DNA from: Thermodesulfobacteriota bacterium
GTDB taxonomy: Bacteria; Desulfobacterota_D; UBA1144; Nemesobacterales; CSP1-2
DNA: 41,349 nucleotides
NCBI GenBank assembly: GCA_036397855.1
Contig: DASWID010000163.1
Span: forward strand, 1 to 41,349
Direction of reading: 5' to 3'
In this document: in pieces, positions 17,001 to 41,349 of the stretch
Layout of the letters: every line of letters starts with the position of its first letter
Position numbering within the stretch: the stretch's first letter is position 1
The notes under the pieces: generated by a model
The model's input: the letters and a program-made list of their open reading frames with translations, nothing else
Told to the model about the DNA's origin: nothing
Database searches by the model: none
Translations under genes and position numbers: made by a program

Positions 17001-17010
17001 GAACCAATAA

Positions 17011-24586: not shown

Positions 24587-25036
24587 ATGTCGAAATATAT
24601 CATTAAAATCGCTGAATCTGAGGATGAACTGAAAGAATATTTTCGTATTCGCAATGAAGTGTTTGTCAGGGAGCAAAGGATATTTCCCGAAACAGATGTC
24701 GACGAATATGATCGGAATTCAATTCACATAATCGCAGTCGAAAGCTCAAGCAGTAACGTAGTAGGCGTTGTCAGATGCTACAGTAAGGATGGAAACACAT
24801 GGTTTGGCGGCAGACTTGGAGCTTTACCCGATTACCGTAATGGCAGAGTTGGATCACGTCTTGTGAGATTCGCTGTGAATACTGCCAAATCAAAGGGATG
24901 CAAAAAATTCCTGGCGTACATACAGCCCAATAATGTTAGATTCTTCCAGAGACTTGATTGGGAAAAGATAGGGGAGCCGATTATCTATCACGGTATTCCG
25001 CACCAACTCATGGAAGCAAATTTGGATTCGTATTAA
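24587..25036 (+). CDS. GNAT N-acetyltransferase, MSMEG_0567/Sll0786 nitrogen-starvation family
   Basis: The 149-residue GNAT domain has the family-typical opening FRIRNEVFVREQRIFPETDVDEYD, the acetyl-CoA loop LPDYRNGRVGSRLVRFAV and a C-terminal IQPNNVRFFQRLDWEKIGEP. The last part closely resembles the GNAT encoded in the Nit1 clusters of mycobacteria and cyanobacteria (MSMEG_0567, Sll0786). The acyl acceptor is unknown. An AIR-synthase-like gene of the same cluster follows, as in those organisms, but here a heptad-repeat array separates the two genes. This is the first gene of the 13-gene plus-strand cluster. Confidence 0.85.
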   Translation: MSKYIIKIAESEDELKEYFRIRNEVFVREQRIFPETDVDEYDRNSIHIIAVESSSSNVVGVVRCYSKDGNTWFGGRLGALPDYRNGRVGSRLVRFAVNTAKSKGCKKFLAYIQPNNVRFFQRLDWEKIGEPIIYHGIPHQLMEANLDSY

Positions 25037-25042
25037 TATCAC

Positions 25043-25164
25043 GATGCAGGATGCAAGATGCAGGATGCAGGATGCAAGTATGAAAAAAAGAACGTGTGTC
25101 CTGAATGGTGAATCATACATCATGCATCGTGGATCGTGTATCGTGCATCATGAATCGTGCATCC
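25043..25164. repeat. Heptad-repeat inverted array 1 (GATGCAR units / TGCATCN units)
   Basis: The left arm (25043-25078) is five tandem 7-mers of the type GATGCAG/GATGCAA. After a short A-rich spacer the right arm (25100-25164) is a longer run of 7-mers of the type ATCRTGN (CATCGTG, GATCGTG, CATCATG). The arms are complementary at six of seven positions per unit, so the transcript could form a long imperfect hairpin. It lies exactly between the GNAT and AIR-synthase-like genes. Three relatives are at 26777-26920, 28232-28337 and 40740-40816. Confidence 0.8.
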
Positions 25165-25211
25165 GCAAATTTTGACAAGGCCGTGTTATTAAAAAAGAAT
25201 AGGAATTCACT

Positions 25212-26201
25212 ATGGATGAGCTAATAAGTGCATTACGCAGCTCCCCTCGTTTAACCGATAAAGTAAATTTAAGAAACCTCTGGGATATCATACCGGGTGT
25301 TTGCGAAGTCGATGGTAGAAATGTGATTCTTGGTGACGATGCAGCGGCTATAGAGACGCAAGATGGTTATTTGTTGGTCGCTGCTGAAGGAGTTTACCCC
25401 GAACTTCTGAAATCAAATCCCTACCTGGCAGGGCGCACCTCTGTCCTTACAAATGTGAGTGATATTTACGCTATGGGTGGAAGACCGATCGCGATCCTGG
25501 ATGTACTATTTTCACCCAACTACGATGAAGTAAATGAGGTGCTTCGTGGAATAAAGGATAATGCATCACGATATAAAGTTCCTTTGGTAGGTGGTCATTT
25601 AACTCGGAAAACCAATTTTTCTTCGCTCTCAGTCTTTATAATAGGTAGGGCTACAAGGATACTCTCCAGTTTTAATGCCAAAACAGGCGATGACTTGGTT
25701 TTCGTTTGTAACTTAGAGGGGAAATTCTATTCAGGATTTAATTTTTGGGATTCCTCCAGTCAATTGAGTAGTGAAGACGCTCTGAGACAATTGGAAGTGT
25801 TTCCGCGACTTGCAGAGGAAGGAAAGGTTGACAGCGCGAAGGACGTTAGCATGGCAGGTTTAATTGGATCAGTCCTGATGCTTTTGGAGTCTTCGGGAAA
25901 AGGTGCAGAGATACACATAGAAAAGATTCCAAAGCCTTATGATATTCCATTAAGGGAGTGGTTGATTACCTTCCCGAGTTACGGATTCATTTTATCGATA
26001 AGACCACAATACACCACAGAAGTTAAGAAGATATTCAATTCTATTAAGCTCACGTGTCGAGTGATCGGTAAGATTATCGGCGGCAGTAATGTCTTATTCG
26101 TAAAAAATGGGGTTGAAAAAAGACTATTTTGGGATATTGAAGTTCAGCCTTTAATTGGTATTGGAAAAGGTAGATTAAAAAAGGTGAAAAATGGCGAATG
26201 A
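25212..26201 (+). CDS. AIR synthase-related protein, Sll0787 family
   Basis: The 329-residue product has the PurM/ThiL/HypE-like ATP-binding fold. The N-terminal glycine-acid loop is VILGDDAAAIE (about residues 39-49), then VLTNVSDIYAMGGRPIAILD and VPLVGGHLTRKTNF, the usual dimer-interface motifs, and DVSMAGLIGSVLMLLESSG of the second domain. The family is encoded in Nit1-type nitrogen-starvation clusters beside the GNAT above. Members probably phosphorylate or activate a carbonyl or amide, with the substrate unknown. The stop codon overlaps the regulator gene by 11 bases, so those two are coupled. Confidence 0.88.
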   Translation: MDELISALRSSPRLTDKVNLRNLWDIIPGVCEVDGRNVILGDDAAAIETQDGYLLVAAEGVYPELLKSNPYLAGRTSVLTNVSDIYAMGGRPIAILDVLFSPNYDEVNEVLRGIKDNASRYKVPLVGGHLTRKTNFSSLSVFIIGRATRILSSFNAKTGDDLVFVCNLEGKFYSGFNFWDSSSQLSSEDALRQLEVFPRLAEEGKVDSAKDVSMAGLIGSVLMLLESSGKGAEIHIEKIPKPYDIPLREWLITFPSYGFILSIRPQYTTEVKKIFNSIKLTCRVIGKIIGGSNVLFVKNGVEKRLFWDIEVQPLIGIGKGRLKKVKNGE

Positions 26202-26778
26202 ACAGAATCAGATAGAGACTATAGTTTCAAAACTAGGTGAGAAAATTAAGCGAATCCGATTAGAGAAGGGTCTGTCCCTTAAAGACTTGTCGGTAAAATC
26301 CGGAATCTCCGCAGCAGCTATCCACAAGATAGAGTCTAATGGAATAATCCCAACCATAACGACCATGATGAAGATCTCTGATGCATTGGGAAAAGAGGTA
26401 AGCTATTTCATTGAAGAAAGACGGGGAAAAAGGGATGTCTTTTTTGTACAAGTTCAACGACGTGAAAGTATTTTCACATTTAAGAAGGGATTAAAGCTTC
26501 ATGGTATTTCTGCAAAGAAATACGGAGACTTCATGATGACAGCCGCCTATGCAGTGGTTGACGTAGGGGCCGCAAGCGGTAGAAATCCAATGAAACATAG
26601 AGGAGAAGAGTTGGTATATTGCCTTAAAGGGAAAATGGAACTTCGAATAGGTGATCAAACATATACCCTAGGACCCGGCGACAGTATTCACTTCAGGACT
26701 GATATCAATCATAGTTGGAAAAATACTGCCGACGCTCAAGCAGAATTAATATGGGTGCTAGCCGTTGAACCTTCATGA
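26191..26778 (+). CDS. XRE-family transcriptional regulator with a C-terminal cupin domain
   Basis: The 195-residue product has an N-terminal helix-turn-helix of the XRE class (about 12-70: LGEKIKRIRLEKGLSLKDLS, then SGISAAAIHKIESNG). A cupin_2 domain follows, with MKHRGEELVYCLKGKMELRIG and LGPGDSIHFRTDINHSWKN supplying typical cupin motif 1 and 2 positions. Such proteins usually bind a small-molecule effector in the cupin and repress or activate the adjacent operon. Its overlap with the AIR-synthase-like gene and its place inside the cluster make it the likely local regulator. No operator could be identified. Confidence 0.9.
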   Translation: MANEQNQIETIVSKLGEKIKRIRLEKGLSLKDLSVKSGISAAAIHKIESNGIIPTITTMMKISDALGKEVSYFIEERRGKRDVFFVQVQRRESIFTFKKGLKLHGISAKKYGDFMMTAAYAVVDVGAASGRNPMKHRGEELVYCLKGKMELRIGDQTYTLGPGDSIHFRTDINHSWKNTADAQAELIWVLAVEPS

Positions 26779-26920
26779 TTCAGGATACAGGAAACAGGAT
26801 GCAGGATGAAAAGAAAAAAGATTAATCCTGAACCGTGAATCATGCATCTTGTATCGTGCATCATGAATCAGTTTTTATTTATCATGCATCATGCATCGTG
26901 CATCGTGAATCATGCATCTT
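26777..26920. repeat. Heptad-repeat inverted array 2
   Basis: The left arm (26777-26808) contains degenerate 7-mers (CAGGATA, CAGGAAA, CAGGATG). The right arm (26826-26920) is a long run of ATCRTGN units interrupted by a T-rich insert at 26870-26884. It begins at the stop of the regulator gene and ends just before the DUF1116 start. The repeat keeps a reading frame open, which makes the DUF1116 frame look 30 codons longer than the likely gene. Confidence 0.8.
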
Positions 26921-26931
26921 CTGTTAATACA

Positions 26932-28233
26932 ATGGTTGCTAAAATAAAAGACCAGAAAAAAACAGAGACCGGGGCATTAAAGTATCTCGGTGAGCGAATT
27001 AATGAAGCCAACACACTTGCGATAGACAGAATCTTATCCGTTGAACCTGTTTTCATTGATGTTGATACAGCACTTAATGTAATACCCGGTATGACCCACG
27101 ATACAATACTCCATGCAGGTCCTCCGATTGAATGGGAAAGAATGTGCGATCCGATGAAGAGGGCAGTTAGAGGAGCTTTAGTGTTCGAGGGCCTTGCAGA
27201 AAATGACGAGGCCGCAATTCAACTACTAAAAAGAAAAAAAGTAAAGCTCTCGCCAAACCATCACCATGACGCAGCGGGAGCGATGACGGGAATTATCTCG
27301 CCCTCAATGCCTGTCATTGTTACAAAAGACTCAACCTTCGGAAAAACAGTTTTTTCCACATTTAATGAAGGCGCAGGCAAAGTCCTATGGTTTGGGTCTT
27401 TCGAAAAAGAGACCCTTGATCGTCTCAAGTGGATTCGGGACATTTTTGGTCCTGTAATGAAGAAGGTTATCAAAAAAGCACAAGGCATCCCCATCTGGAG
27501 CATCCTGGCCCAGGGAATTCAGATGGGAGATGAGTGCCATAATCGTCACGCGGCATCATCAAATCTTTTTCTTAAAAGAATTCTCGAACCACTCGTTTCG
27601 ATCGATCTTTCAAAAAGAGTTTTGTTGCAGGTCTATAACTTTATTGCCGGAAATAGCCATTTCTTTCTAAACATTACCATGGCTGCCTGTAAACTCTCGA
27701 TGGATGCGGCACGGGGTATAAGAGAATCAACTGTTGTCACCGCAATGTCTCGAAATGGGACTGATTTTGGTATTCGAATAAGCGGACTTGGGAATGAATG
27801 GTGCACAGCACCTGCTCCTTATCTCAAGGATGCTCTATATAACCCTGGATACAACTTCAATGACGGAGCCCCAGATATAGGGGACAGCTCAATCATAGAA
27901 ACAATGGGACTTGGAGGGTTCGCCATTGCAGCCGCGCCTGCAATGGCATCATTTGCCGGAGGAGGCTTTCAAGAGTCTATAAGAATTACAAAGGAGATGG
28001 GTCGAATCACTCTTGTAAAGAATCAGAAGTTCGGAATCCCGGTATTGGACTTCGAGGGAACTCCCACAGGTATCGATTTACGAAAGGTCGTTGAAATTGG
28101 AATTAGCCCAAGTATTAATAGCGCCGTACTACATAAAAGCTCGGGAGCCGGTCAGATAGGTGCGGGAATCGTAAAGGCCCCATATGAATGTTTTTCGAAG
28201 GCACTCAAGGCTTTTGGCAGGAAATACACATGA
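26932..28233 (+). CDS. allG: DUF1116 protein (YlbE/AllG-like), subunit of an oxamate-carbamoyltransferase-type complex
   Basis: The product, about 433 residues, matches the DUF1116 family (Escherichia coli YlbE, renamed AllG). Family-like stretches are VIPGMTHDTILHAGPPIEWE, MKRAVRGALVFEGLA, LSPNHHHDAAGAMTG, GIQMGDECHNRHAASSNLF, SRNGTDFGIRISGLGNEW and AGGGFQESIRITKEMG. In E. coli this protein acts with FdrA/AllF and AllH to transfer a carbamoyl group from oxalurate to phosphate. The His- and Asn-rich motifs are probable active-site elements. I use the ATG at 26932; an in-frame extension to 26842 is encoded only by the upstream heptad repeat. No ribosome site is evident. fdrA follows. Confidence 0.88.
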   Translation: MVAKIKDQKKTETGALKYLGERINEANTLAIDRILSVEPVFIDVDTALNVIPGMTHDTILHAGPPIEWERMCDPMKRAVRGALVFEGLAENDEAAIQLLKRKKVKLSPNHHHDAAGAMTGIISPSMPVIVTKDSTFGKTVFSTFNEGAGKVLWFGSFEKETLDRLKWIRDIFGPVMKKVIKKAQGIPIWSILAQGIQMGDECHNRHAASSNLFLKRILEPLVSIDLSKRVLLQVYNFIAGNSHFFLNITMAACKLSMDAARGIRESTVVTAMSRNGTDFGIRISGLGNEWCTAPAPYLKDALYNPGYNFNDGAPDIGDSSIIETMGLGGFAIAAAPAMASFAGGGFQESIRITKEMGRITLVKNQKFGIPVLDFEGTPTGIDLRKVVEIGISPSINSAVLHKSSGAGQIGAGIVKAPYECFSKALKAFGRKYT

Positions 28234-28337
28234 TGCAGGATGCAAGATGCAGGATGCAAGATGCAAGATAATAAAAGAAAATATAGGTTAATCCTGGATC
28301 ATGTATCGTGCATCGTGCATCGTGGATCTTGAATCGT
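28232..28337. repeat. Heptad-repeat inverted array 3
   Basis: The left arm (28232-28268) is five clean 7-mers of the GATGCAG/GATGCAA type. The right arm (28291-28337) has seven ATCRTGN-type units. It fills the space between the DUF1116 stop (which it overlaps by two bases) and the fdrA start, leaving only 12 bases before the ATG. Confidence 0.8.
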
Positions 28338-28349
28338 TAAGAGAAAACT

Positions 28350-29900
28350 ATGGCTGTAGTCAGCACAGTTAAGAAAAACTTCTATCAGGATTCAATGAAG
28401 CTTATGCAGATTAGCCAAAAGCTAAGCAGTCTTAGCGGAATTAAAAAGGCGGCAGCAATCATGGCAACCGAAGCTAATCTAGCCATGCTGAAAGAGACGG
28501 GATTACTCAAGAAAGGAACCGATTCAGCCAGTCCTAACGATCTTATAGTGGCAATCGAAGCAGAGTCTGGAAAAGCAGCAGATGAAGCTCTAAAGATGTT
28601 GGACTCTCTTCTTGCCCCTCATCCAGCTGACGTTACTTCAAAAATTGAATATAAGGATCTTGATTCAGCTCTAAATAATTTGCCCCAGGCGAATATTGTA
28701 GTTATTTCCGTTCCCGGAGAATATGCAAAGTTGGAGGTTGCGAAGGCTGTTGACAGGGGTATCCATGTCTTTCTGTTTAGCGATAACGTATCAATCGATG
28801 AAGAGATTGAGCTCAAGCTTAGGGCAAAAGAGAAGGGTTTACTAATGATGGGTCCTGGTTGCGGAACAGCAATCATAAATGGAGTAGGACTTGGATTTTC
28901 AAATGTCGTAAATCGAGGTCCAATAGGGATTATAGCAGCAGCGGGCACTGGAATGCAAGAAGTTACTAGCCTTATAAACAATTGGGGATCAGGAATTTCA
29001 CACGCGATCGGAGTCGGTGGCAGAGACTTGTCTGACAAGGTAGGCGGAATAATGACGATAGAGGCAATAAGAATGCTTCTGGGCGATGAAGGAACAAAAG
29101 CCCTTCTTCTGGTTTCGAAGCCACCTTCAGATAAGGTAGCAAGAAGGGTCATAAATTTAATTCGTAAAGGTGACCTACCAGCTGTTATATGTTTCCTCGG
29201 AATGGAAAACATCAAAACGAAAGATTCAAAAATGCAATTTGCCACAAATTTGGACCAAGCCGCGCTTAAAGCAATTAAGCTGGTGGGAGCAAATAATCGC
29301 GCTCCCAAGGTTCTTTCTGATAACAAGTGGAAAAAAGCCGCTCAGAAGTGTCAAAGCCTTTTAAATACCGATCAGCTTTATCTTCGCGGCTTATTCTCTG
29401 GCGGAACCCTTTGTTATGAAGCCCAGCAAATCCTGACACCAATGCTCGGCAAAATATATTCCAATACCCCACTCTATAAGCAAAACAAATTAAAAAATTC
29501 AAATGTAAGCAAGCGGCATACATGTATTGATCTGGGTGAGGAAGAATTTACTAAGGGACGCCCTCATCCGATGATTGATGCGACACAGCGAAGTGAACGG
29601 CTATTACAAGAGGCATCCAATCCTGATGTTGCCGTGATTCTATTCGACGTGGTACTTGGATACGTCGCAAGCCCTGATCCTGCAGGTGATCTAATTCCCG
29701 CTATAAATGAATCAAAAAAAATAGCGAAAACTAACGGTCGTTCTATCACTTTTGTGGCGCATGTTTGTGGTACTGAGCGAGACCCTCAGGATCTAAAATC
29801 GCAGGAGAAAAAGTTGGAAAAAGCTGGAGTCATTGTTCTTCCCACAAACGCTTTAGCCTCTAGAGTGGCAGGATTAATAGCAAAAGGTGTGAAGACTTAG
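28350..29900 (+). CDS. fdrA: FdrA-like acyl-CoA synthetase-fold protein (AllF-like)
   Basis: The 516-residue product resembles FdrA/AllF. An N-terminal family region (about 1-100: YQDSMKLMQISQKLSSLSGI, AAIMATEANLAMLKETG) is followed by a CoA-binding Rossmann domain and a succinyl-CoA-ligase-type domain, with GPGCGTAIINGVGLGFSN, IGIIAAAGTGMQEVTSLI and GISHAIGVGGRDLSDKVGG. The phosphohistidine loop typical of succinyl-CoA synthetase alpha is not apparent. In E. coli it is a subunit of oxamate carbamoyltransferase. It sits between DUF1116 and carbamate kinase, the same association as in the allantoin region of enterobacteria, but without the ureidoglycolate genes. Confidence 0.9.
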   Translation: MAVVSTVKKNFYQDSMKLMQISQKLSSLSGIKKAAAIMATEANLAMLKETGLLKKGTDSASPNDLIVAIEAESGKAADEALKMLDSLLAPHPADVTSKIEYKDLDSALNNLPQANIVVISVPGEYAKLEVAKAVDRGIHVFLFSDNVSIDEEIELKLRAKEKGLLMMGPGCGTAIINGVGLGFSNVVNRGPIGIIAAAGTGMQEVTSLINNWGSGISHAIGVGGRDLSDKVGGIMTIEAIRMLLGDEGTKALLLVSKPPSDKVARRVINLIRKGDLPAVICFLGMENIKTKDSKMQFATNLDQAALKAIKLVGANNRAPKVLSDNKWKKAAQKCQSLLNTDQLYLRGLFSGGTLCYEAQQILTPMLGKIYSNTPLYKQNKLKNSNVSKRHTCIDLGEEEFTKGRPHPMIDATQRSERLLQEASNPDVAVILFDVVLGYVASPDPAGDLIPAINESKKIAKTNGRSITFVAHVCGTERDPQDLKSQEKKLEKAGVIVLPTNALASRVAGLIAKGVKT

Positions 29901-29926
29901 CTAACTAAATAAGCGGAGGGAATGTA

Positions 29927-30865
29927 ATGAAGGTAGCTGTAGTAGCTTTTGGTGGAAACGCCCTCATGGGTCACGAGGGTAAAAGCAATTATACAGATCA
30001 GATGAGGAGAACAGATACAATATGTAGAAAACTACTCAGCCTGTTTGAATTGGGATATAGGATTGTAATCACCCACGGTAACGGTCCGCAGGTGGGAAAT
30101 ATTCTGATGCAGCAGGAGTGTCTTATAGATTCTTTACCACCAATGCCACTTGACGTTTGTAACGCAATGACACAGGGACAGATAGGATATATGATAGAAC
30201 AGAGGTTGAGAAACATTTTCGAGGAAAAAAAGATCAAAAAATCCGTTGTAGTTTTAGTTACGCAAGTGGTTGTTTCAGAAAACGATCCCGCGTTTAAAAA
30301 TCCAACAAAGTTCATCGGGCCTTTTTTCAGTAAAGAGGAAACTGAAAGACTCGAAAAGGAGAAGGGCTGGAACATAAAAGAGGATTCAGGAAGGGGTTAT
30401 AGACGTATTGTTCCATCTCCAAGACCAATAGATATAGTAGAAAAAGACGAAATCTCGGACATGGCAAACAGAGATTTAGTCGTAGTAGCATGTGGGGGTG
30501 GAGGAATACCAGTGCTTAGAGACAAAAAAGGGAAACTAAAGGGCGTTGCCGCTGTGATTGACAAAGATTATGCAGCTGAAAGGATCGCGAGTCTCATAGG
30601 TGCGGATTCACTGATCTTAATAACGCCCGTCGACAAGGTATCAATATTCTACGGAACATCAAAACAGAAAGACCTTGGAAGATTATCGCTCGAAGAAGCG
30701 AGGGGTTACTACGATGAAGGACATTTCCCACCCGGGAGCATGGGGCCTAAAGTCGAGGCCGCTATGAAATTTATCAGCTCAGGCGGACGGAGGACGATTA
30801 TCACCTCTATAGAGGGTTTGGAAGATGCGATAAAAGGCAAAGGCGGAACGGTGATAACGCAATGA
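29927..30865 (+). CDS. arcC: Carbamate kinase
   Basis: The 312-residue amino-acid-kinase-fold product starts with VAVVAFGGNALMG. It continues with VITHGNGPQVGNILMQQE, RRIVPSPRPIDIVE, VVACGGGGIPV, AAVIDKDYAAERIASLIGAD, and the C-terminal PPGSMGPKVEAAMKFI, a complete set of family motifs. It converts carbamoyl phosphate and ADP to ATP, ammonia and carbon dioxide. GGAGGG lies 6 bases before the ATG, and the gene follows fdrA after 26 bases. With AllF/G/H-like partners it would harvest ATP from a carbamoyl compound. No arginine deiminase or catabolic ornithine carbamoyltransferase is in the window. Confidence 0.95.
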   Translation: MKVAVVAFGGNALMGHEGKSNYTDQMRRTDTICRKLLSLFELGYRIVITHGNGPQVGNILMQQECLIDSLPPMPLDVCNAMTQGQIGYMIEQRLRNIFEEKKIKKSVVVLVTQVVVSENDPAFKNPTKFIGPFFSKEETERLEKEKGWNIKEDSGRGYRRIVPSPRPIDIVEKDEISDMANRDLVVVACGGGGIPVLRDKKGKLKGVAAVIDKDYAAERIASLIGADSLILITPVDKVSIFYGTSKQKDLGRLSLEEARGYYDEGHFPPGSMGPKVEAAMKFISSGGRRTIITSIEGLEDAIKGKGGTVITQ

Positions 30866-31156
30866 AATAATATCAGTAGACCAGTAGTAACTTGTAGGGG
30901 ATTAATTTATAGAAATACTTTAAAATCGTTTTTTTTGAAATAAATTCCGTACTCCATAAAGAGTTATTAGAATTTGCGATTTTGGTATTTATGAAACGAT
31001 TTGCTATATATGACATCTAAGCACCAAGGCTTTTATACGTAGGAAGTTGAGATATTGCTTTTATTGAACTTTTGTAATATGATGGGATAATAAGGGGTGT
31101 GAGTTAACCGATTAAACATTAAATTTATTGAAGCGAGAACATAGGAGGTGATGTAA
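30866..31156. other. Intergenic region between carbamate kinase and the amidohydrolase
   Basis: About 290 AT-rich bases without a gene. It is the largest gap in the first half of the cluster and may hold a second promoter. It ends with an unusually strong ribosome-binding site, AGGAGGTG, at 31143-31150 that sets the TTG start of the next gene. Confidence 0.4.
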
Positions 31157-32002
31157 TTGAAAGTGAACAGAAAGGTTTTTGATGCTCATTCACACATAGG
31201 AGAGCTAGCGGCGTATAAATACTATGATTTAACAGAACCAGTAAAACCCACCGTGATCGAGTATCCCACTTATAAAGAATATCTAAAACATATGGACGAG
31301 TATGGTGTTGATCGCGCGATGGTGATTTCTAATTACGGAGTGCCTGACTCAGGTCAGCCATTTACTTTGAATCCAATTGTGCTTGATGGTGTCCATCATG
31401 CAGACCGACTGGTTGGAGCAATCTGGGTTTCCGGTCTTACAAAAGACAAAGAACGTACAGCGGAAGCATTAAAACATGTTAAGGAAGAAGGGATAGTTGC
31501 TCTAAAGTCTACATGCCTTCTTGGGGGTACATACAATCCTGGTGAATGGGATGATGAAGCGCGAGCATTATGGGAAAGCATAATTAATGCTGCTGAGCAA
31601 AATGACCTTGCTTTACATATTCATACGAGCCCTGGTGGAGGTTCAGACATTTCAAATGCACTCGAGTTAGTCAAAAAGTATGGGAAAAGAATCAAGATAC
31701 ATCTGGTACATATGGGTGGATTTGTTAGTGGACATATAAAGCTGGTACCAAAGTTTATTAATTTGGTGAAAGAAGGTTTTAAGGTTTATACGGATACAAC
31801 ATGGGCAGTTGGCTTTGGATCGCGTTGGTTACTCAGTGAGATTGAACGAACTGGTGTTGGCTCCGATAACGTCCTTTTTGCATCCGACACTCCATGGAGT
31901 GACTTTCCTTCGGAGTTCTGGAAGATCGAAGGCGCAGATATTTCTGAGGAATTAAAAAATAAGATTTTTTGGGAAAATGCCCAGAAACTTTATTCTAAAT
32001 AA
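31157..32002 (+). CDS. TIM-barrel metal-dependent amidohydrolase
   Basis: The 281-residue product is an amidohydrolase_2-type barrel. Strand 1 has FDAHSHIGE (His11, His13). Later metal and active-site positions are LHIHTSPGGGSD, KIHLVHMGGF and the final FASDTPWSDFPSEF with its catalytic aspartate. Relatives hydrolyse or decarboxylate small cyclic or aromatic acids. Within this cluster, which lacks a nitrilase, it may provide the hydrolytic step, but that is inference. Translation starts at TTG, supported by AGGAGGTG 6 bases upstream. An inverted repeat separates it from the following Sll0783-like gene. Confidence 0.88.
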   Translation: MKVNRKVFDAHSHIGELAAYKYYDLTEPVKPTVIEYPTYKEYLKHMDEYGVDRAMVISNYGVPDSGQPFTLNPIVLDGVHHADRLVGAIWVSGLTKDKERTAEALKHVKEEGIVALKSTCLLGGTYNPGEWDDEARALWESIINAAEQNDLALHIHTSPGGGSDISNALELVKKYGKRIKIHLVHMGGFVSGHIKLVPKFINLVKEGFKVYTDTTWAVGFGSRWLLSEIERTGVGSDNVLFASDTPWSDFPSEFWKIEGADISEELKNKIFWENAQKLYSK

Positions 32003-32011
32003 AAAACCGTT

Positions 32012-32100
32012 GCCACAAAATCACAAAGGCACAAAGGAGTAATCCAGAAGTTGAATGAAAAAATCCTAATTATAACTTTGTGTCTTAGTGTCTTTGTGGC
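32012..32100. repeat. CACAAAG-type inverted repeat
   Basis: GCCACAAAATCACAAAGGCA at 32012-32031, continuing to 32036, pairs with the sequence CTTTGTGTCTTAGTGTCTTT starting at 32076, continuing to 32100. The two 25-base arms agree at 21 positions and are separated by 39 bases. It belongs to the dispersed CACCAAGACACAAAG...CTTTGTGTCTTGGTG type. A partial copy lies at the right end of the window (about 41314-41328). It sits between the amidohydrolase and the Sll0783-like gene. Confidence 0.65.
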
Positions 32101-32139
32101 TGATAGAAGAAAATTAAATAAATTAAGGAGGTAGTAAAA

Positions 32140-32631
32140 ATGGCAGTCGATCGAGTAAAAGGAGAGAAACCAACAGTAGGAAAGGCGTTGGTAGATTATG
32201 AGGAGAAGGTATTCCCCGATCATAAAGCAAAACCAGGGGAAAAGGCGTTATTCCTTATCCACTCGGTGCCCTATGAAGGTTCTGTGGCTGGTATAAATAT
32301 GCTTACGGCCATAAGAGCTAAAAAGAAGGGTTATGATGTGAGCGTACTCTTTTACGGCCCGGCTTCCGGCATACCAGTATATAGGGGCTGGCCCAATGTT
32401 GGAGACGACGCTTATGGTGCTGGGATACAGTTATATCCAAACCTTGTTGCACGATTGATTAAGGAAGGAATAACGGTCTACGCTTGTCGCTTTTCAGCTG
32501 CTTCGCTTTGCGGTCTCAGAGAAGATGACTTTCTGGAGGGTGTAAGGGGGATACATCCAACTGACATCCTGGACATTGTAATCGAACACCATAGGGCTGG
32601 GGCAATGTTATTCAGCACTTGGACTGTTTGA
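32140..32631 (+). CDS. MSMEG_0572/Sll0783 family nitrogen-starvation response protein (DsrE-like)
   Basis: The 163-residue product has the family pattern GEKALFLIHSVPYEGSVAGIN, then VSVLFYGPASGIPVYRGWPNVGDDA, then YACRFSAASLCGLREDDFLEGVRGIHPTDILD. Its fold is DsrE-like, with Cys in ACRFSAASLCG as possible reactive residues. Homologues are strongly induced by nitrogen limitation in cyanobacteria (Sll0783) and lie in Nit1 clusters. The biochemical role is unsettled. A perfect AAGGAGGT site precedes the ATG, suggesting high expression. The radical SAM gene of the same cluster follows. Confidence 0.9.
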   Translation: MAVDRVKGEKPTVGKALVDYEEKVFPDHKAKPGEKALFLIHSVPYEGSVAGINMLTAIRAKKKGYDVSVLFYGPASGIPVYRGWPNVGDDAYGAGIQLYPNLVARLIKEGITVYACRFSAASLCGLREDDFLEGVRGIHPTDILDIVIEHHRAGAMLFSTWTV

Positions 32632-32767
32632 GAACAATTTATTAGCAGTTATCTTTTTTAATATTTATTTTTCAGAGATACTATAAAACGATCATTCTTT
32701 GGTCTGCAAGCTAAAGCCGTAGAGTGGTTGACTGGGTAGTATTGCTAAACTTATCTGGGGGTGATAA

Positions 32768-33898
32768 ATGGATCCAAGATCCCTGAAAGTGGAGTTGCAG
32801 AGTTACGGCGTGAGAATCCCTGATACCAGAGATATAAGGAGGGGTGGAGCGGGACCTACGGGCGGGATACATCTAAAGATTCTTCCCGACAGTGAAGCTA
32901 ACATTCCCGTGGTTGGGGGTTTCCTGGATTCCTCGCCCTACTATCTCGACCAAATTAATGGGGAATACTGGGTGTTTCGAGACGATGTAGCTCTAGCTCA
33001 GGTAGAGCTGATGAAGGACGCTAATTTTTATGAGCACAAAACATCAAATGGAATTCCGATGCAGAAAATTGGGCTGCTTCACTGTCCGACAACATTTGCG
33101 ACTACCCTTCTTCAGACCTGCGATTTCTGGGTAGATGAACGGAGGTGTAAGTTCTGCGGTATCGAGCTTACACTTAAGGATAGGAGCACTGTTGGTTTTA
33201 AAAATTCAAAAAGCCTTGTTGAGACTATTTTGCTTGCTAAGGAACTCGATGGAATTTCGAATATTGTTTTTACCTCGGGAGTTGCTCCAGATGAGGAAAA
33301 GGCATTACGAAAGTATGCCGAAATATGTTCAGAAGTGAAGAGATTCACGGGTCTTCCAATACAGCTTCAAATTATACCCCCTGAGGATCTAACCTGGCTT
33401 AAAAGACTAAAGAATGCAGGAGTTGATGCCCTGGGGGTTCATATAGAGACGTTTGACCCCGATGTATTTGAAAAAATTACCCCTGGTAAAGCGAGAATTG
33501 GATTCGATAAGTATTTGGAGACGTGGAGGGAAGGGGTGAATGTATTCGGAAGGTGGCAGGTAAGTACATATGTATTAGTAGGGCTCGGAGAGAGACTAGA
33601 AACGATAATAGAAGGAGCATCATTATGCGCTGAATTAGGAGTGTATCCCTTTATAGTACCATTCCGACCCATTGCTGGAACACCGATGGAAAATGTAAAA
33701 CCCCCAGAGCCAGAAATTATGAACTACGTTTATACAGAAGTCGCAACGGTTCTTGCAAAATACGATGGGGGATCAAAGAGCAGCAGTGCGGGTTGTGTGA
33801 GCTGTGGCGAGTGTTCAGCCCTTCCTGACTTTGAAAAGATGTTTAAGGAAAGTGAAGTCAAATTCAAAGGATTTATGAAAAAGAATAAGGTTAGCTGA
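32768..33898 (+). CDS. Radical SAM protein, MSMEG_0568 family
   Basis: The 376-residue product matches the Nit1-cluster radical SAM family (MSMEG_0568): GVRIPDTRDIRRGGAGPTGG at its N-terminus, then the likely cluster motif CDFWVDERRCKFC (Cys118, Cys127, Cys130). The spacing is C-X8-C-X2-C instead of the textbook C-X3-C-X2-C. A barrel follows with VFTSGVAPDEEKAL, LQIIPPED, ALGVHIETFDPDVF and VLVGLGERLET. A C-terminal CVSCGEC (Cys343, 346, 349) could bind a second cluster. It may build the nitrile or related group made by these clusters, but its substrate is unknown. GGGGGTG precedes the ATG. Confidence 0.9.
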   Translation: MDPRSLKVELQSYGVRIPDTRDIRRGGAGPTGGIHLKILPDSEANIPVVGGFLDSSPYYLDQINGEYWVFRDDVALAQVELMKDANFYEHKTSNGIPMQKIGLLHCPTTFATTLLQTCDFWVDERRCKFCGIELTLKDRSTVGFKNSKSLVETILLAKELDGISNIVFTSGVAPDEEKALRKYAEICSEVKRFTGLPIQLQIIPPEDLTWLKRLKNAGVDALGVHIETFDPDVFEKITPGKARIGFDKYLETWREGVNVFGRWQVSTYVLVGLGERLETIIEGASLCAELGVYPFIVPFRPIAGTPMENVKPPEPEIMNYVYTEVATVLAKYDGGSKSSSAGCVSCGECSALPDFEKMFKESEVKFKGFMKKNKVS

Positions 33899-33953
33899 AG
33901 TGTCCTGAAGATTTAATCTGCTGATTAATAAACAGGATTCGAAGAAAGTGAGG

Positions 33954-33969
33954 AACGCATATATGCGTT
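33954..33969. promoter_or_regulatory. 16-base palindrome upstream of the flavoprotein gene
   Basis: AACGCATATATGCGTT is a perfect palindrome, extended with one mismatch to GGAACGCAT/ATGCGTTTCC. It lies in the 147-base gap after the radical SAM gene, 77 bases before the next start. There is no T-tract, so an operator or an attenuator-like hairpin is as likely as a terminator. Confidence 0.4.
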
Positions 33970-34045
33970 TCCAAGTTTCCTGTTAAACTTTTACCTGGTT
34001 AATAAATTATATTTGGATCTGCGATTTCAGTGAGGTAAAAATATC

Positions 34046-35422
34046 ATGGCTCAAAACAATCTACGTATCATTGTTGTCGGAGGAGGCGCTGCTGGGATTT
34101 CCTCCGCCTCGACTTCCAAGGTTATCGCGCCGGATTCCAAAGTTACTCTTTTCACAGAATATGAAGATGTAGCTTACAGTCCTTGCGGTATCCCATTCGT
34201 ACATGGAAAGGAAATTCCAGATTTCAAGAATCTCTTTCTCCAGACCTCAGAGCACTATGCTGGGATAGGAATAGATCTAAGGCTCCAAACGACTGTTACT
34301 GGACTAGATGTAAAAAATAAGACCGTTAATGTTGGCTCAGATGTCTTCGAGTGGGATCGGCTGATTCTCGCAACTGGTTTTGAATATGAAAAGCCGGATA
34401 TTCCGGGTGTAGAACTCGAAGGTCTTCACTACGTTAAGAACATTCGTCGCGCAATGGAATTTGACAAGATTCTTGATCAGATAAAGAAGGCTGTAGTCAT
34501 GTCTGCAACTCCTCTAGGTATTGAAATGACTGGCGCCCTTGCCCAAAGGGGTCTTGAGACCCACCTTGTGGACGAGGGGGCATGGATAATGTCTGATGTA
34601 GCTGATCCCGATATAGTCGAACCAGTGCAGCAGTCTCTTGAGGAACTCGGTGCAAAAATCCATTTTGGCACTAAGGTCTTAGAGTTTAAAGGCTCTAATG
34701 GAAAGGTGGCCTCGGTAGTTACAAATAATGGTGAGATCGACTGTGATGTAGTAATCGTTGCCACTCATAAAGTGCCAAACAACAAACTCGCTAAGGCTGC
34801 AGGTTTAGACATAGGAGCAACCGGGGGAATACTCGTAGATGATCATATGCGCACATCCGTCAAAGATGTTTATGCAGCAGGAGACTGCATAGAAGTTGTT
34901 CATGGCGTAACTGATTTACCAATACAAGGCCTTTCCGGGAGCCACGCCTATTCCCAGGGAAGGGTTGCGGGCGCTAACGCCGCGGGCGATGACCGAGCTT
35001 ATGATCCTGTCTACATACCCTGGGGCATGGTAGGGGGCCACGTCCAGTTAGGGGGTGTTTCCCTTGGCGAAACGCTTCATAAGGCTTTAGGAATTCCGCA
35101 CTTCGTTGCCTTTGCTCAAGGAATATCCAGAGCCAGATACTATCCAGGAGTTAGCAGAATACGTGTTAAGCTCATTGCTGATCCGAAAACACTTCGAGTC
35201 ATGGGTGCGCAGATGTCGGGCGGTGAGGGAATCAAGGAAAGAGCAGACTTCCTTGCATTTACGATCAAACGTGGAGCCACACTGCATGACTATGCCTGGA
35301 TGGAAAATGTTTATTCACCCCCAATCGGGGCACTGATGGAGCCGATTGCACTGGCGGCTCAGGCTGGATTAGCAGAGTTGGCAAAGAGAAGATACGAAGC
35401 TCCAGAATTTGCCGGCAAATAG
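34046..35422 (+). CDS. Flavoprotein of the CoA-disulfide reductase / NADH oxidase family
   Basis: The 458-residue product has the FAD Rossmann motif VVGGGAAGISSAS (residues 10-22), the redox cysteine in AYSPCGIPFVHGKEIPD (Cys47), a second FAD motif DVYAAGDCIEVVHGV and a C-terminal dimerisation domain (from about 340). In relatives Cys47 forms a mixed disulfide with CoA or a sulfenic acid. The second nucleotide loop is degenerate: VVMSATPLGIEMTG replaces the normal VVIGGGxIGxEMAE, so ordinary NAD(P)H binding is doubtful. GAGGT lies 9 bases upstream. In typical Nit1 clusters a different flavoprotein (MSMEG_0569) occupies this role. Confidence 0.88.
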   Translation: MAQNNLRIIVVGGGAAGISSASTSKVIAPDSKVTLFTEYEDVAYSPCGIPFVHGKEIPDFKNLFLQTSEHYAGIGIDLRLQTTVTGLDVKNKTVNVGSDVFEWDRLILATGFEYEKPDIPGVELEGLHYVKNIRRAMEFDKILDQIKKAVVMSATPLGIEMTGALAQRGLETHLVDEGAWIMSDVADPDIVEPVQQSLEELGAKIHFGTKVLEFKGSNGKVASVVTNNGEIDCDVVIVATHKVPNNKLAKAAGLDIGATGGILVDDHMRTSVKDVYAAGDCIEVVHGVTDLPIQGLSGSHAYSQGRVAGANAAGDDRAYDPVYIPWGMVGGHVQLGGVSLGETLHKALGIPHFVAFAQGISRARYYPGVSRIRVKLIADPKTLRVMGAQMSGGEGIKERADFLAFTIKRGATLHDYAWMENVYSPPIGALMEPIALAAQAGLAELAKRRYEAPEFAGK

Positions 35423-35438
35423 AATAGAGGTAGCAAAA

Positions 35439-35699
35439 TTGGCAGACAACAAATCTTTCAGTCAATGGTTAAGAAAAAATGCTGAAAAGTACCTGCTGGA
35501 GGCTGCGGCTGATGATCTAATAGCCCGCTATCCCGATCTTTGCGCAAAGCCTTACCGCGATGAAGGGCCTGGTCCCTTTTTTTGGAGGAAGGTATTCGTT
35601 CCACTTTATACTTCTATTCCCTGGAGCATACGTAAAAAGATTATCCTTCTTACTGCATACCCGGGTGGAAAACGCCCACACTGGAAGAGTTTTACTTAA
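35439..35699 (+). CDS. Unrecognised 86-residue protein in the cluster
   Basis: I do not recognise this family. The start is TTG at 35439, supported by AGAGG 8 bases upstream. A further upstream ATG (35409) would overlap the flavoprotein gene and has no such site. The protein starts with a helical stretch (SFSQWLRKNAEKYLLEAAAD), continues with DLIARYPDLCAKPYRDEGPG and then an aromatic and basic half, FFWRKVFVPLYTSIPWSIRK, ending PGGKRPHWKSFT. The hydrophobic segment is too short and charged for a clear membrane helix. It begins 16 bases after the flavoprotein stop and ends 5 bases before the DUF2877 gene, so it is almost surely translated as part of the operon. Confidence 0.75.
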   Translation: MADNKSFSQWLRKNAEKYLLEAAADDLIARYPDLCAKPYRDEGPGPFFWRKVFVPLYTSIPWSIRKKIILLTAYPGGKRPHWKSFT

Positions 35700-35704
35700 T
35701 TCCG

Positions 35705-36685
35705 ATGCCATTAATTGCAGAATCCGTAGGTTATAAGGCCAAGAAGGCCCTACAGAATTCCCGAACAAAATCTAAGATACATAGCGTATTCGATCACGCC
35801 TTTTATATAGAAGTTAATGAAAACAAATTGATTAATGTCATAACGACTATATCGTACATGAGTTCAACCTCTGTTCTGATAAAGAATACAAGAATGAAGA
35901 GTTTTAAACTATTGAATATTAAAGAAGGTATGCAAGTTAGCGCAGACGATCGTCATATTGTGATCGGAGACAAGCTAGCAGCTATAAAACTTGATGGGTC
36001 CTCCACATATTCAAAACCCCCGGTCCCAAAAAAGGAATCATTAGGAAGTTTAGCTATGATAAGTTTGAATCTCAGGGTAGCTCGAGATGAAATATATAAA
36101 TGCAGGAGCAGGGACGGTCTGGTCGATGTATTGGAAAAGGTGGAAACCACGGGCCCGCTCAACCTTTTTCTAAAACCTCAAGAGATCAACCTTTCAGAAA
36201 GAGCAAGGCCTTATATCGAAAGGCTAATGTGGGGCCTCCACTGGGGCGATTCCGAGATGGTATTATCGAATGCCCAGTTGCTTCTAGGATTAGGCCCGGG
36301 ACTAACACCTTCATGTGATGACTTTTTAGCAGGTTTGCTAATGAGTTTAAACTTCGCGGGCAAAGTTATCTTAAAAGATATTAAGCAGGAAACGGAGTTT
36401 TATAAGATGATTTCTAACCAAATCTACAGGTCCGCAAAATCAAAAACAACTATATACAGCCTAAATAATTTAGAAGGTGCTTGTTATGGTGAAGGGCCTA
36501 ATGCAGCTGTGGACTTAATGCTCAGTCTGCTAACAAAGGATGCAAATCAAGTTGCAAAGTGTACTCGGATGGTGCTAAAGATCGGAGAAACAACGGGCGC
36601 CGATATCGCAATTGGAGTTTACTATGGAATTCGTTATTTGATTTCGCGATTAGAAGGTATAGAAAGCTTTGATGAAACCGCTTAA
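35705..36685 (+). CDS. allH: DUF2877 protein (YlbF/AllH-like), oxamate-carbamoyltransferase-type subunit
   Basis: The 326-residue product has the DUF2877 hallmark LLGLGPGLTPSCDDFLAGLL (about residues 196-215), then TIYSLNNLEGACYGEGPNAA and a terminal TGADIAIGVYYGIRYLIS. E. coli AllH (YlbF) has the same GxGPGLTPxGDD element and is the third component of oxamate carbamoyltransferase with AllF and AllG. Here it is separated from those two by carbamate kinase, the amidohydrolase, two Nit1-type genes, the flavoprotein and the 86-residue protein. The stop overlaps the glycosyltransferase start by 14 bases, indicating coupling. Confidence 0.85.
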   Translation: MPLIAESVGYKAKKALQNSRTKSKIHSVFDHAFYIEVNENKLINVITTISYMSSTSVLIKNTRMKSFKLLNIKEGMQVSADDRHIVIGDKLAAIKLDGSSTYSKPPVPKKESLGSLAMISLNLRVARDEIYKCRSRDGLVDVLEKVETTGPLNLFLKPQEINLSERARPYIERLMWGLHWGDSEMVLSNAQLLLGLGPGLTPSCDDFLAGLLMSLNFAGKVILKDIKQETEFYKMISNQIYRSAKSKTTIYSLNNLEGACYGEGPNAAVDLMLSLLTKDANQVAKCTRMVLKIGETTGADIAIGVYYGIRYLISRLEGIESFDETA

Positions 36686-37868
36686 GATCGCCCTATTTAC
36701 ATATTCAACCAAGCCAAGAGGAGGCGTCGTACATACTCTAAGATTGGCGGAGGAATTGACAAGTCTAAAACATGACGTTCATGTTTATACCCTATCCACC
36801 GGGAATGGCTTTTACAGAAATGTAGACTTTCCCCATACCCTTATACCTTGCCCGGTGGTCAACTATCCAAGCATTGATGAAAAGATAGAAAGCTATATCC
36901 GAATATATTACGAATATCTCTCGTCCATAAATGAACTTTACGACATCTACCACGCAGAGGATTGTATCTCAGCAAATGCACTATTGGAATTGCGTAATAA
37001 TGGAGTTATCAAGTCGTTCGTAAGAACGGTCCATCACCTAGATGATTTCACTTCTCATTCCCTAATTGAGTGCCAGTCGAACAGTATATTGGAACCCGAT
37101 CATGTGATGGTTGTTAGCAGATATTGGGAAAAGGAACTCCGTTCACTTTATTCCTTAAACCCTATACTTACTCAAAATGGCGTGGATGTGGGCAGGTTTT
37201 CACAACTTAAAGGAGACAAATATTCAAAAGAATCGGCAAAAGGTAAGTTTTCGGTTAATGGTTACAGGGTAATTTTGAGTATAGGTGGAATTGAACCGCG
37301 AAAGAATACCTTAACTACGCTCAGGGCGTTTAACATTGCAAAATCCCATTTTATGAAAAAGGGTGAGCGTTTGATATGGTTAATTGGAGGCGGAGAAACC
37401 CTCTTCGATTACAGGGCATATCGCGAGGAATTCTTTTCTCAAGTCGAGAGGCTAGGACTCAAAATGGATCAAGACATAAGGGTTCTTGGGAATATACCGG
37501 AAGTGAATATGCCAGACCTTTACGGCGCGGGAGATATTTTTGTATTTCCATCCCTGAAAGAAGGTTGGGGACTTGTCGTGCTTGAGGCCATGGCTTCAGG
37601 AGTTCCAGTCATCGCTTCCAATATTGCACCGCTGACCGAGTATCTAAAAGATAGTGAAAACGCAATCCTTATTCCTCCCATGGACCATGAGGCCCTGGCT
37701 CAAGAAATAATAAGTGTTTTGGAAGACGAAGATCTTCGAGAAAAACTAGCAACAAATGGACTGAGGACTGCCAAATCCTACAGCTGGCGGAGTACAGCGT
37801 TAATGCATTCGGAGTTTTATAATAGAATTCTAGAAGGTGTTATACCAGTTAAAAAAAACACATTGTAA
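36672..37868 (+). CDS. Glycosyltransferase, MSMEG_0565 family (GT4 fold)
   Basis: The product, about 398 residues, is a GT-B retaining glycosyltransferase. The N-terminal domain has FTYSTKPRGGVVHTLRLAEEL and IYHAEDCISANAL. The donor-binding domain has ILSIGGIEPRKNTLTTLRAF and the E-x7-E motif EGWGLVVLEAMASGVPVIAS (about 299-318). The N-terminal sequence is typical of the Nit1-cluster glycosyltransferase (MSMEG_0565), which suggests the final product is glycosylated. The start is ATG 36672, with TTG just before it, overlapping the DUF2877 stop. It is the last gene of the cluster proper and is followed by a GC-rich hairpin. Confidence 0.9.
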   Translation: MKPLKIALFTYSTKPRGGVVHTLRLAEELTSLKHDVHVYTLSTGNGFYRNVDFPHTLIPCPVVNYPSIDEKIESYIRIYYEYLSSINELYDIYHAEDCISANALLELRNNGVIKSFVRTVHHLDDFTSHSLIECQSNSILEPDHVMVVSRYWEKELRSLYSLNPILTQNGVDVGRFSQLKGDKYSKESAKGKFSVNGYRVILSIGGIEPRKNTLTTLRAFNIAKSHFMKKGERLIWLIGGGETLFDYRAYREEFFSQVERLGLKMDQDIRVLGNIPEVNMPDLYGAGDIFVFPSLKEGWGLVVLEAMASGVPVIASNIAPLTEYLKDSENAILIPPMDHEALAQEIISVLEDEDLREKLATNGLRTAKSYSWRSTALMHSEFYNRILEGVIPVKKNTL

Positions 37869-40313: not shown

Positions 40314-40700
40314 ATGGAAGTTCAGGCTATTTGGAAGAAGAATTATCGGGTTGAAGTTAGGGCGAGGCAATTTAATGTTCCTATTGATGAGGCTCCCGAG
40401 TTCAATGGTGAAGACACCGGAATGATGCCGACTGAATTATTTCTCTGCTCTCTAGCTTCTTGTTATTGCCTTTCTCTCGTATACGTTGCTAAAAAAAAGC
40501 AAATGAAAATTGAAGACATGCGTGTAAATGTAATAGGCGAAAAGGACAAAAGAAATTTCATTTTTTCAAGACTTATAGTAGAGGTTGAGAGTTCATTGCC
40601 ATCAGAGGATTTAGAAGATATCATCGATATTGCAATAAAATATTGCTATGTGAGCAATACTGTATCAAAATCATGCCCGATTGAGTATGTAGTAGTTTAG
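40314..40700 (+). CDS. OsmC-family protein
   Basis: The 128-residue product has the OsmC/Ohr fold with two cysteines at family positions: SLASCYCLSLVYVAKKK (first, on the central helix) and KYCYVSNTVSKSCPIEYVV (second, near the C-terminus). In Ohr and OsmC the pair reduces organic hydroperoxides; many members of this YhfA-like branch have unknown substrates. The conserved GEDTGMMPTELFLCSLASC opening supports the assignment. It is co-directional with, and followed after a heptad-repeat array by, the short FdrA-like gene. Confidence 0.88.
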   Translation: MEVQAIWKKNYRVEVRARQFNVPIDEAPEFNGEDTGMMPTELFLCSLASCYCLSLVYVAKKKQMKIEDMRVNVIGEKDKRNFIFSRLIVEVESSLPSEDLEDIIDIAIKYCYVSNTVSKSCPIEYVVV

Positions 40701-40816: not shown

Positions 40817-40838
40817 TTTTTAATGGAGGGGAAATATC

Positions 40839-41297: not shown

Positions 41298-41349
41298 TGT
41301 AAGAACCACTACGGCACCAAGACACCACGTTCTTAATTATATTAAAACA

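Follow-up and report, generated by a model that had tools for sequence, protein, structure and literature searches.

A gene cluster from a Thermodesulfobacteriota bacterium belongs to one conserved unit, as judged by gene content and order, in which predicted Nit1-type nitrogen genes and All-type carbamoyltransferase genes occur together. The unit is physically linked to predicted genes for coenzyme M (CoM), a small thiol known chiefly from the metabolism of methane and alkenes. The gene set points to an undescribed pathway. We consider it probable that the unit encodes one horizontally mobile pathway, composed of Nit1-type enzymes and an AllF/AllG-type transferase, that depends on CoM made by genes of the same locus. 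A literature search, whose coverage excluded most subscription journals, found no published report of the Nit1/AllFGH/CoM gene combination.

Composition of the gene cluster

Profile searches of the proteins encoded in the window (the whole stretch of 41,349 nucleotides that was analysed) identified 13 genes between positions 24587 and 37868, all on the + strand (Table 1). This agrees with the original prediction of thirteen co-directional genes that include five Nit1-type families; all five pass their curated cut-offs, and the predicted AllG, AllF, AllH, carbamate kinase (CK) and amidohydrolase were likewise recovered by profile matches. The flavoprotein described as CoA-disulfide-reductase-like is real, but its score of 276 is under the family cut-off of 579. 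It has a single redox cysteine (SPCGIP) and is 52% identical to its homologue in a Methylocystis cluster. The radical SAM protein contains a CX8CX2C motif and a C-terminal CX2CX2C motif. The HTH-cupin regulator is kept in the cluster of relatives and in Methylocystis (41% identical to the latter). A search of solved structures with the amidohydrolase gave no informative match; its gene is retained in the clusters of relatives and in G061 and G065, two genomes of a distant lineage. The AllH gene starts 5 bp past the 96-aa gene and, as predicted, overlaps the glycosyltransferase gene, by 17 bp.

Table 1. Predicted genes of the hybrid cluster and neighbouring genes in the window
Gene product	Position	Strand	Assignment
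GNAT, MSMEG_0567/Sll0786 family	24587..25036	+	TIGR04045, 158.6 vs cut-off 68.45 bits
AIR-synthase-like (AIRS), sll0787 family, PurM/HypE/ThiL superfamily	25212..26201	+	TIGR04049, 336 vs cut-off 321
HTH-cupin regulator, PuuR-like	26191..26778	+	Pfam HTH_3 + Cupin_2
AllG (DUF1116)	26842..28233	+	PF06545, 271 bits
AllF (FdrA)	28350..29900	+	NF004760, 493 vs cut-off 433
Carbamate kinase (CK)	29927..30865	+	TIGR00746, 388 vs cut-off 358
Amidohydrolase-2 family hydrolase or decarboxylase	31157..32002	+	PF04909
MSMEG_0572/Sll0783 family (0572), DsrE-like	32140..32631	+	TIGR04044, 169 vs cut-off 110
MSMEG_0568 radical SAM (rSAM)	32768..33898	+	TIGR04043, 335 vs cut-off 304
FAD pyridine-nucleotide disulfide reductase (FADox), CoA-disulfide-reductase-like	34046..35422	+	profile matches
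96-aa protein	35409..35699	+	no Pfam/NCBIfam match; conserved among relatives
AllH (DUF2877)	35705..36685	+	PF11392, 73 bits
MSMEG_0565 family GT4 glycosyltransferase (GT)	36669..37868	+	TIGR04047, 383 vs cut-off 260
OsmC-like protein	40314..40700	+	PF02566
mini-FdrA	40839..41297	+	two matches to E. coli AllF
AgcS sodium:alanine/glycine symporter (tentative member)	21723..23081	+	TIGR00835

The hybrid resembles Nit1C (nitBCDEFGH; sll0783-0787; MSMEG_0565-0572) in its GNAT, AIRS, 0572, rSAM and GT proteins, and both contain a flavoprotein and a protein of about 100 amino acids. Unlike Nit1C, the cluster in the window's lineage is without nitrilase. None was found in the window, as had been predicted, and no Nit1-type nitrilase (subfamily-1, TIGR04048) scored over the cut-off in 61 related genomes, the window's own included. 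The flavoprotein of Nit1C is of the MSMEG_0569 type, whereas that of the window is CoA-disulfide-reductase-like. The 96-aa protein has no NCBIfam match, the MSMEG_0570 family (~100-aa ORF6) included, and hence no detectable relation to it, although a distant one is possible. In the plasmid collection its only matches are the two Methylocystis clusters, and this protein is a signature of the CoM-linked subtype of the cluster. An AlphaFold2 model of it had a pLDDT of 54, too low to use. AllFGH, mini-FdrA, CK, amidohydrolase, OsmC and CoM genes are all additions of the hybrid.

Extent and conservation of the unit

The predicted limits of the cluster, 24587 to 37868, were too narrow. Comparison of gene order indicates that the unit continues with the OsmC-like and mini-FdrA genes in the window and then onto a second contig (G000:C57), which carries a downstream module of five genes encoding a haem-oxygenase-fold protein (Fer13), a methyltransferase, an aminotransferase, a PLP synthase and a PLP decarboxylase. 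OsmC comes right after the glycosyltransferase in most relatives. The AgcS symporter lies upstream of the cluster only in the window and in one other locus (L014, genome G002).

The order of the 13 genes is kept across three families (f1, f3 and f6) of the window's order. Among the 61 related genomes, most of the evidence coming from metagenome-assembled genomes, rSAM was found in 21 and AllG in 24; 20 have both, one has rSAM alone and four have AllG alone. The genus g11 has a patchy distribution, with rSAM, AllG and Fer13 all confined to one and the same set of 3 genomes out of 14. The original prediction held that the mixture is not two neighbouring operons and treated confinement to this genome as a sign of chance adjacency. 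The conserved order, the co-occurrence in 20/61 genomes and the recurrence in a distant lineage bear it out, the mixture being present in three families, in G061/G065 and in Methylocystis. Two operons brought together by chance, or an assembly artefact, would be compatible with draft metagenome contigs and with intergenic gaps of up to 291 bp in the window cluster. Such an explanation is hardly credible given the gene order kept in many genomes, the all-or-none occurrence in one genus, the reappearance of the set in another order in a distant lineage, and the presence on complete plasmids of cultured strains.

The oxamic transcarbamylase gene set

The window contains the gene set for a predicted oxamic transcarbamylase (OXTCase), i.e. 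AllF, AllG and AllH homologues with carbamate kinase, the AllF being truncated and its complement lying in mini-FdrA. AllG, AllF and CK are 42, 38 and 38% identical, respectively, to the E. coli allantoin proteins. The alignment of AllG with its E. coli counterpart begins at residue 53, and the true start of AllG may lie further in than annotated. AllF aligns to residues 6-492 of the 555 of E. coli AllF, with the C-terminal ~60 residues missing. Mini-FdrA matches E. coli AllF twice, at 6-89 (E 1e-11) and 507-554 (E 3e-6). By alignment, the predicted mini-FdrA comprises the FdrA N-terminal domain and exactly the C-terminal motif missing from the local AllF. In Methylocystis, the missing C-terminal part of AllF sits at the N-terminus of AllG.

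The hybrid shares AllG, AllF, AllH and carbamate kinase with the E. coli allFGHK operon, but it is interleaved with Nit1 genes, its AllF is split with mini-FdrA and allantoin genes are absent. An ordinary oxalurate-type AllFGHK system for ureide or allantoin catabolism that merely sits with Nit1 genes would fit the identities to the E. coli proteins. It would also fit the occurrence of AllFGHK with biuret genes, outside allantoin operons, in nitrifiers, although the available part of that report does not mention the Nit1 radical-SAM cluster or CoM genes with them (PMC12625717). We regard this explanation as decidedly improbable: as predicted, no allantoin-pathway genes are among the annotated genes of the window, and the association of the All genes with Nit1 and CoM genes recurs in three lineages.

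Linkage to coenzyme M genes

The hybrid set recurs with a different gene order in G061 and G065. The rpoB of the G061 lineage is 58.8% identical, yet rSAM, FADox and the amidohydrolase are 75, 74 and 80% identical; single-gene trees gave weak support for a donor. In G061 the hybrid is preceded, on the same strand, by a complete XcbA-ComA-XcbC-XcbD-XcbE operon, with 44 bp between the end of the operon and AllG. XcbA (411 vs 150 bits) and XcbC (628 vs 575) score above their cut-offs and ComA was identified by PF02679; XcbD and XcbE are fused, with XcbE at 476 vs 450 and the XcbD fragment at 592 vs 600. This operon matches the CoM cluster of Xanthobacter autotrophicus Py2 in its five functions and in their order, and its proteins are 47-58% identical to their Py2 counterparts. 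The G065 contig carries mini-FdrA followed by XcbA at the contig end. Nit1 genes were not found near ComA on a ComA plasmid of Legionella lytica.

The Xcb operon is not in the window's cluster, and the ComA homologue of the window's genome is unlinked to it, lying next to an MmgE/PrpD-like gene. Unlike the Py2 clusters, the window's lineage has the unrelated five-gene module in place of the CoM genes, and the hybrid is without EaCoMT and 2-KPCC. In G001 the module lies among genes for EaCoMT (58% identical to Py2), 2-KPCC (46%, with the CX4C motif intact), two SDRs and a MEDS regulator, with EaCoMT, 2-KPCC and SDR resembling those of the Py2 epoxide cluster. G031 repeats this arrangement on fragments: one contig combines EaCoMT-like and CoADR-like genes with a portion of the module, and another has EaCoMT, 2-KPCC-like, SDR and MEDS-type genes. 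Genome searches found ComA in neither G001 nor G031. Since the module stands in CoM-dependent epoxide clusters of two ComA-less genomes, it is a candidate, and may be a new route of CoM biosynthesis.

The MetE-like EaCoMT gave strong matches only in G001 and G031 (best score in the window's genome, 19.7 bits), and no known CoM-consuming enzyme was found within the hybrid itself. The cluster's flavoprotein is 25% identical to Py2 2-KPCC and is without the CX4C motif. In the window's genome the cluster is without the PLP synthase gene, and the only homologues, 43 and 39% identical, lie elsewhere. Fer13 matched TenA, BesC and CADD, but at the level of the fold only (best E 1e-3). A plasmid search for the module found no Fer13 and only distant homologues of Methyltransf_20.

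The Methylocystis plasmid locus

A single plasmid locus of the cultured Methylocystis iwaonis combines a Nit1 cluster with AllF, AllG and CoM genes. Its Nit1/All part encodes nitrilase (573 vs cut-off 503), rSAM, GNAT, AIRS, 0572, GT, AllF, AllG, FADox, the 96-aa protein and OsmC, and its CoM genes are XcbA, ComA, XcbD, XcbE and XcbC, with XcbC, XcbD and XcbE under their curated cut-offs. CK, AllH and the amidohydrolase were not found in the locus. Because AllF/AllG and nitrilase occur together here, we abandoned a general rule in which AllFGH replaces nitrilase. The CoM link, mini-FdrA, the downstream module and this nitrilase-bearing version lay outside the original prediction.

The locus also encodes an LnmK-like acyltransferase/decarboxylase. 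Its GT, GNAT, radical SAM and LnmK-like proteins look biosynthetic, which we counted against a catabolic reading. The absence of CK from the locus leaves room for a biosynthetic direction, in which AllF/AllG would run synthetically and the product would be a small molecule, glycosylated, acylated and perhaps carbamoylated, that includes or uses up CoM. The original prediction had named both ATP-yielding degradation and the synthesis of a glycosylated carbamoyl compound, and the sequence evidence is compatible with either. The set of GT4, exosortase-like GNAT, radical SAM, AIRS and methyltransferase would suit such a product, as would the ready reversibility of the OXTCase reaction (PMC11326118). 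We nevertheless think biosynthesis rather unlikely, because the CK encoded in the clusters of related genomes and of G061/G065 would drain carbamoyl phosphate and because Nit1C is genetically tied to cyanide assimilation in pseudomonads (PMC11049912).

The tie to cyanide could be read more directly: CoM would take up cyanide to form a linked thiocyanate or nitrile, which AIRS would hydrate to an S-carbamoyl group in a reversal of HypE-type chemistry; AllF/G/H would then pass this group to phosphate, yielding ATP, NH3 and CO2. AIRS does belong by profile search to the PurM/ThiL/SelD superfamily, and a bd-type oxidase adjoins the Methylocystis locus. However, the chemistry is speculative, and by eye AIRS is without the C-terminal PRIC cysteine motif of HypE. 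Cyanide tolerance through the bd oxidase was discarded, as PF01654 occurs in just 3/61 relatives and its distribution does not follow that of the cluster. We judge this form of cyanide or nitrile handling improbable.

Discussion

In the pathway that we favour, rSAM, GNAT, AIRS, 0572 and GT would cooperate with the AllF/AllG-type transferase, a thiol/disulfide flavoprotein, OsmC and the 96-aa protein. From the linked genes we strongly infer that the thiol is CoM, the non-homologous module of the window's lineage included. It would be made via XcbA, ComA, XcbC, XcbD and XcbE in G061 and Methylocystis. The window's lineage would use the haem-oxygenase-fold protein, Methyltransf_20, the aminotransferase, a cysteate-synthase-like PLP enzyme and a LysA-like decarboxylase.

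More weakly, we infer that in the window's lineage the pathway degrades a small C-N compound via carbamoyl phosphate. An N- or S-carbamoyl intermediate would be phosphorolysed by AllF/AllG/AllH with mini-FdrA, carbamate kinase would convert the carbamoyl phosphate to ATP, NH3 and CO2, and the flavoprotein would hold CoM reduced. CK is paired with AllFGH in E. coli catabolism (PMC11326118); in the window's lineage its presence speaks for the release of carbamoyl phosphate with a gain of ATP, the substrate and direction being putative. E. coli requires AllF, AllG and AllH for oxamic transcarbamylase activity (PMC11326118), and the Methylocystis locus is without AllH and CK; carbamoyl-phosphate release is therefore not a universal role. 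This version weakens the carbamoyl-phosphate/ATP reading outside clusters of the Dadabacteria type, as in the window's lineage, and of the G061 type. The full proposal, which we put forward tentatively, as a reasonable possibility, has two parts. Nit1-type and AllF/AllG-type enzymes would form a CoM-dependent pathway that acts on a small nitrogen compound and has spread to distant lineages, and the window's lineage would have a fourth route to CoM, one independent of ComA.

Nit1C is still explained only in part. A 2005 paper described it as widely conserved, its chemistry being then not known (PMC1199592), and it has since been linked genetically to cyanide assimilation in pseudomonads (PMC11049912). 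The hybrid unites, in one conserved and mobile unit, genes from two bacterial nitrogen pathways that had been regarded as unrelated, one a cluster of the cyanide/nitrile type and the other a carbamoyl transferase of the allantoin type. A conserved linkage of Nit1 and CoM genes would supply Nit1-type chemistry with a concrete thiol cofactor, extend CoM into nitrogen metabolism and nominate a new route of CoM biosynthesis. With the locus plasmid-borne in Methylocystis iwaonis, a cultured methanotroph, the pathway is directly testable.

Composition of the hybrid cluster

The window is contig C163 in a draft genome of 3.1 Mb, and its closest named records are metagenome genomes of Candidatus Dadabacteria, Desulfobacterota and bacterium HR37. 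Profile searches confirmed the 13-gene mixture of Nit1-type and All genes read from the sequence in the original prediction, with the Nit1-type proteins, FdrA and carbamate kinase exceeding curated cut-offs. Two members not named there are a PuuR-like HTH-cupin regulator and a 96-aa protein to which these searches assigned no family. All E. coli AllFGHK families are represented. The hybrid shares the Nit1 core, yet by strict features it is not Nit1C, since the nitrilase, ORF6 and flavoprotein features tested were not found. The Xcb operon for coenzyme M (CoM) synthesis is absent from the cluster in this genome.

The small FdrA-like protein (mini-FdrA) aligns to residues 6-89 and 507-554 of E. 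coli AllF; the CoA-binding and ligase domains in between are missing. The window AllF matches residues 6-492 and then ends; the two are complementary. In Methylocystis, the C-terminal motif of mini-FdrA is located at the N-terminus of AllG. Mini-FdrA is therefore probably a transferase subunit.

Positions of features in the window and in related loci
Feature	Location	Coordinates
Branched-chain polyamine synthase (BpsA_C), upstream of carB and greA	window	15847-16923
Thirteen-gene hybrid	window (+)	24587-37868
OsmC	window	40314-40700
mini-FdrA	window	40839-41297
End overlap	window; L039 (G000:C57)	40835-41349; 1-515
Unlinked ComA homologue paired with MmgE/PrpD-like gene; other CoM genes absent	L090 (G000:C59:8000-22165)	10392-12685
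Same pair; other CoM genes absent	L091 (G002:C21)	9642-11900
Second, divergent carbamate-kinase-like gene (33%), between 96-aa protein and AllH	L014 (G002)	12895-13830
Second copy of cluster radical SAM, cysteate-synthase-like PLP gene directly after; apart from main cluster	L011 (G004:C707)	2356-4409
bd-type quinol oxidase genes and DUF2474 subunit, adjoining the Nit1/All/CoM locus	L111 (M. iwaonis plasmid)	15333-17911

Conservation and extent of the unit

Window proteins were compared by tblastn with 25 loci and regions of further genomes, mostly metagenome genomes. Three families keep the order [AmHyd] GNAT AIRS HTH-cupin AllG AllF CK [AmHyd] 0572 rSAM FADox 96-aa AllH GT OsmC mini-FdrA (AmHyd, amidohydrolase; AIRS, AIR-synthase-like; CK, carbamate kinase; 0572, MSMEG_0572/Sll0783; rSAM, MSMEG_0568 radical SAM; FADox, CoA-disulfide-reductase-like flavoprotein; GT, glycosyltransferase). 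The mixed order is thus one unit, and its parts and their physical linkage are established. The amidohydrolase is mainly the gene that moves: in family f1 it lies inside the unit, in f3 and f6 ahead of it in inverted orientation. Among 61 related genomes, rSAM exceeded its cut-off in 21, AllG in 24 and both in 20 (Fisher's test 3e-11, a value that ignores shared ancestry). More telling is one genus of 14 genomes, in which rSAM, AllG and the downstream marker Fer13, a haem-oxygenase-fold protein, occur in the identical three.

While the 13 genes stood, the predicted end did not: OsmC, mini-FdrA and a downstream module also belong to the unit. Many relatives have OsmC and mini-FdrA within about 50 bp after the glycosyltransferase; in the window 2.4 kb, including an Lcl_C-domain gene, separates them from the glycosyltransferase. 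Over its last 515 bases the window agrees with the beginning of contig C57 at 496/515 positions (96%), the last 60 being identical. Because of this overlap C57 likely continues the window, a join inferred rather than assembled, and the near-identical ends suggest an assembly split by strain variants. C57 encodes Fer13, Methyltransf_20, an aminotransferase and a LysA-like protein, with a GxxExxY-like gene inserted between mini-FdrA and Fer13. In relatives, the module additionally has a cystathionine-synthase/cysteate-synthase-like PLP enzyme.

Linkage to coenzyme M genes

In G061, a genome whose rpoB is 58.8% identical to that of the window genome, the hybrid locus reads on one strand XcbA ComA XcbC XcbD-XcbE AllG AllF GNAT AIRS CK 0572 AmHyd 0572 rSAM FADox 96-aa. 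The CoM proteins of this locus share 47-58% identity with their counterparts in Xanthobacter autotrophicus Py2, where the genes are ordered in the same way. The rSAM (75%), FADox (74%) and AmHyd (80%) of G061 are all closer to the window's than rpoB, and the order of the hybrid differs from the window's, which fits transfer of the whole set. No AllH was detected in G061. Its relative G065 has AllH, and there the hybrid is followed by GT, mini-FdrA and, at the contig end, XcbA.

Among 72,556 plasmids the 96-aa protein had only two matches, both in Methylocystis iwaonis. That locus combines nitrilase (TIGR04048, 573 bits), rSAM, GNAT, AIRS, LnmK-like, HTH-cupin, AllF, GT, AllG, 0572, 96-aa, FADox and OsmC genes with ComA, XcbA, XcbD, XcbE and XcbC, the last three scoring below curated cut-offs. 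The FADox is 52% identical to the window's (next best in plasmids, about 31%). A search covering 190-320 kb of the plasmid turned up neither CK nor AllH.

The downstream module (Methyltransf_20, aminotransferase, PLP synthase, Fer13, LysA-like) also occurs in genome G001 without Nit1/All genes, within a CoM-dependent epoxide cluster whose EaCoMT and 2-KPCC are 58% and 46% identical to those of Py2, with the CX4C motif present. Two SDRs, CoA transferase subunits and a MEDS regulator complete this cluster, and G031 repeats the arrangement on fragments. Only these two of the 61 genomes gave strong EaCoMT matches, and ComA is absent from both. They therefore need another source of CoM, for which the module is the candidate. 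A methanotroph has a cluster built in the same way, with a ComA/ASL/ADSL/DcyD set in place of the module (PMC11507031).

HcyBio (PF01837) genes, of the sulfur-incorporating homocysteine/CoM-synthase type, have relatives of the Nit1 radical SAM (about 40%) as neighbours in several archaea, among them alkane/methane oxidisers, at four loci (L018, from Methanophagales, with two copies of the rSAM gene, and L020-L022). This could be a hint that the rSAM family has a role involving sulfur.

Proposed function

We infer that CoM is the thiol of the pathway; it would be handled by FADox and OsmC, and AllF/AllG/mini-FdrA would transfer a carbamoyl-like group. In pseudomonads, genetic evidence ties the Nit1-type core to the assimilation of cyanide (PMC11049912), so that a nitrile or a carbon derived from cyanide is plausible here; the distribution of bd oxidase against the cluster in the 61 relatives gave no support for this reading. 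By its gene content the M. iwaonis locus shows that release of carbamoyl phosphate would not be universal, so a biosynthetic role of the hybrid is a serious rival. For degradation there is the precedent of E. coli, where the group leaves as carbamoyl phosphate with ATP return (PMC11326118). By analogy, release of the group as carbamoyl phosphate, with recovery of ATP, is probable in lineages with AllH and carbamate kinase.
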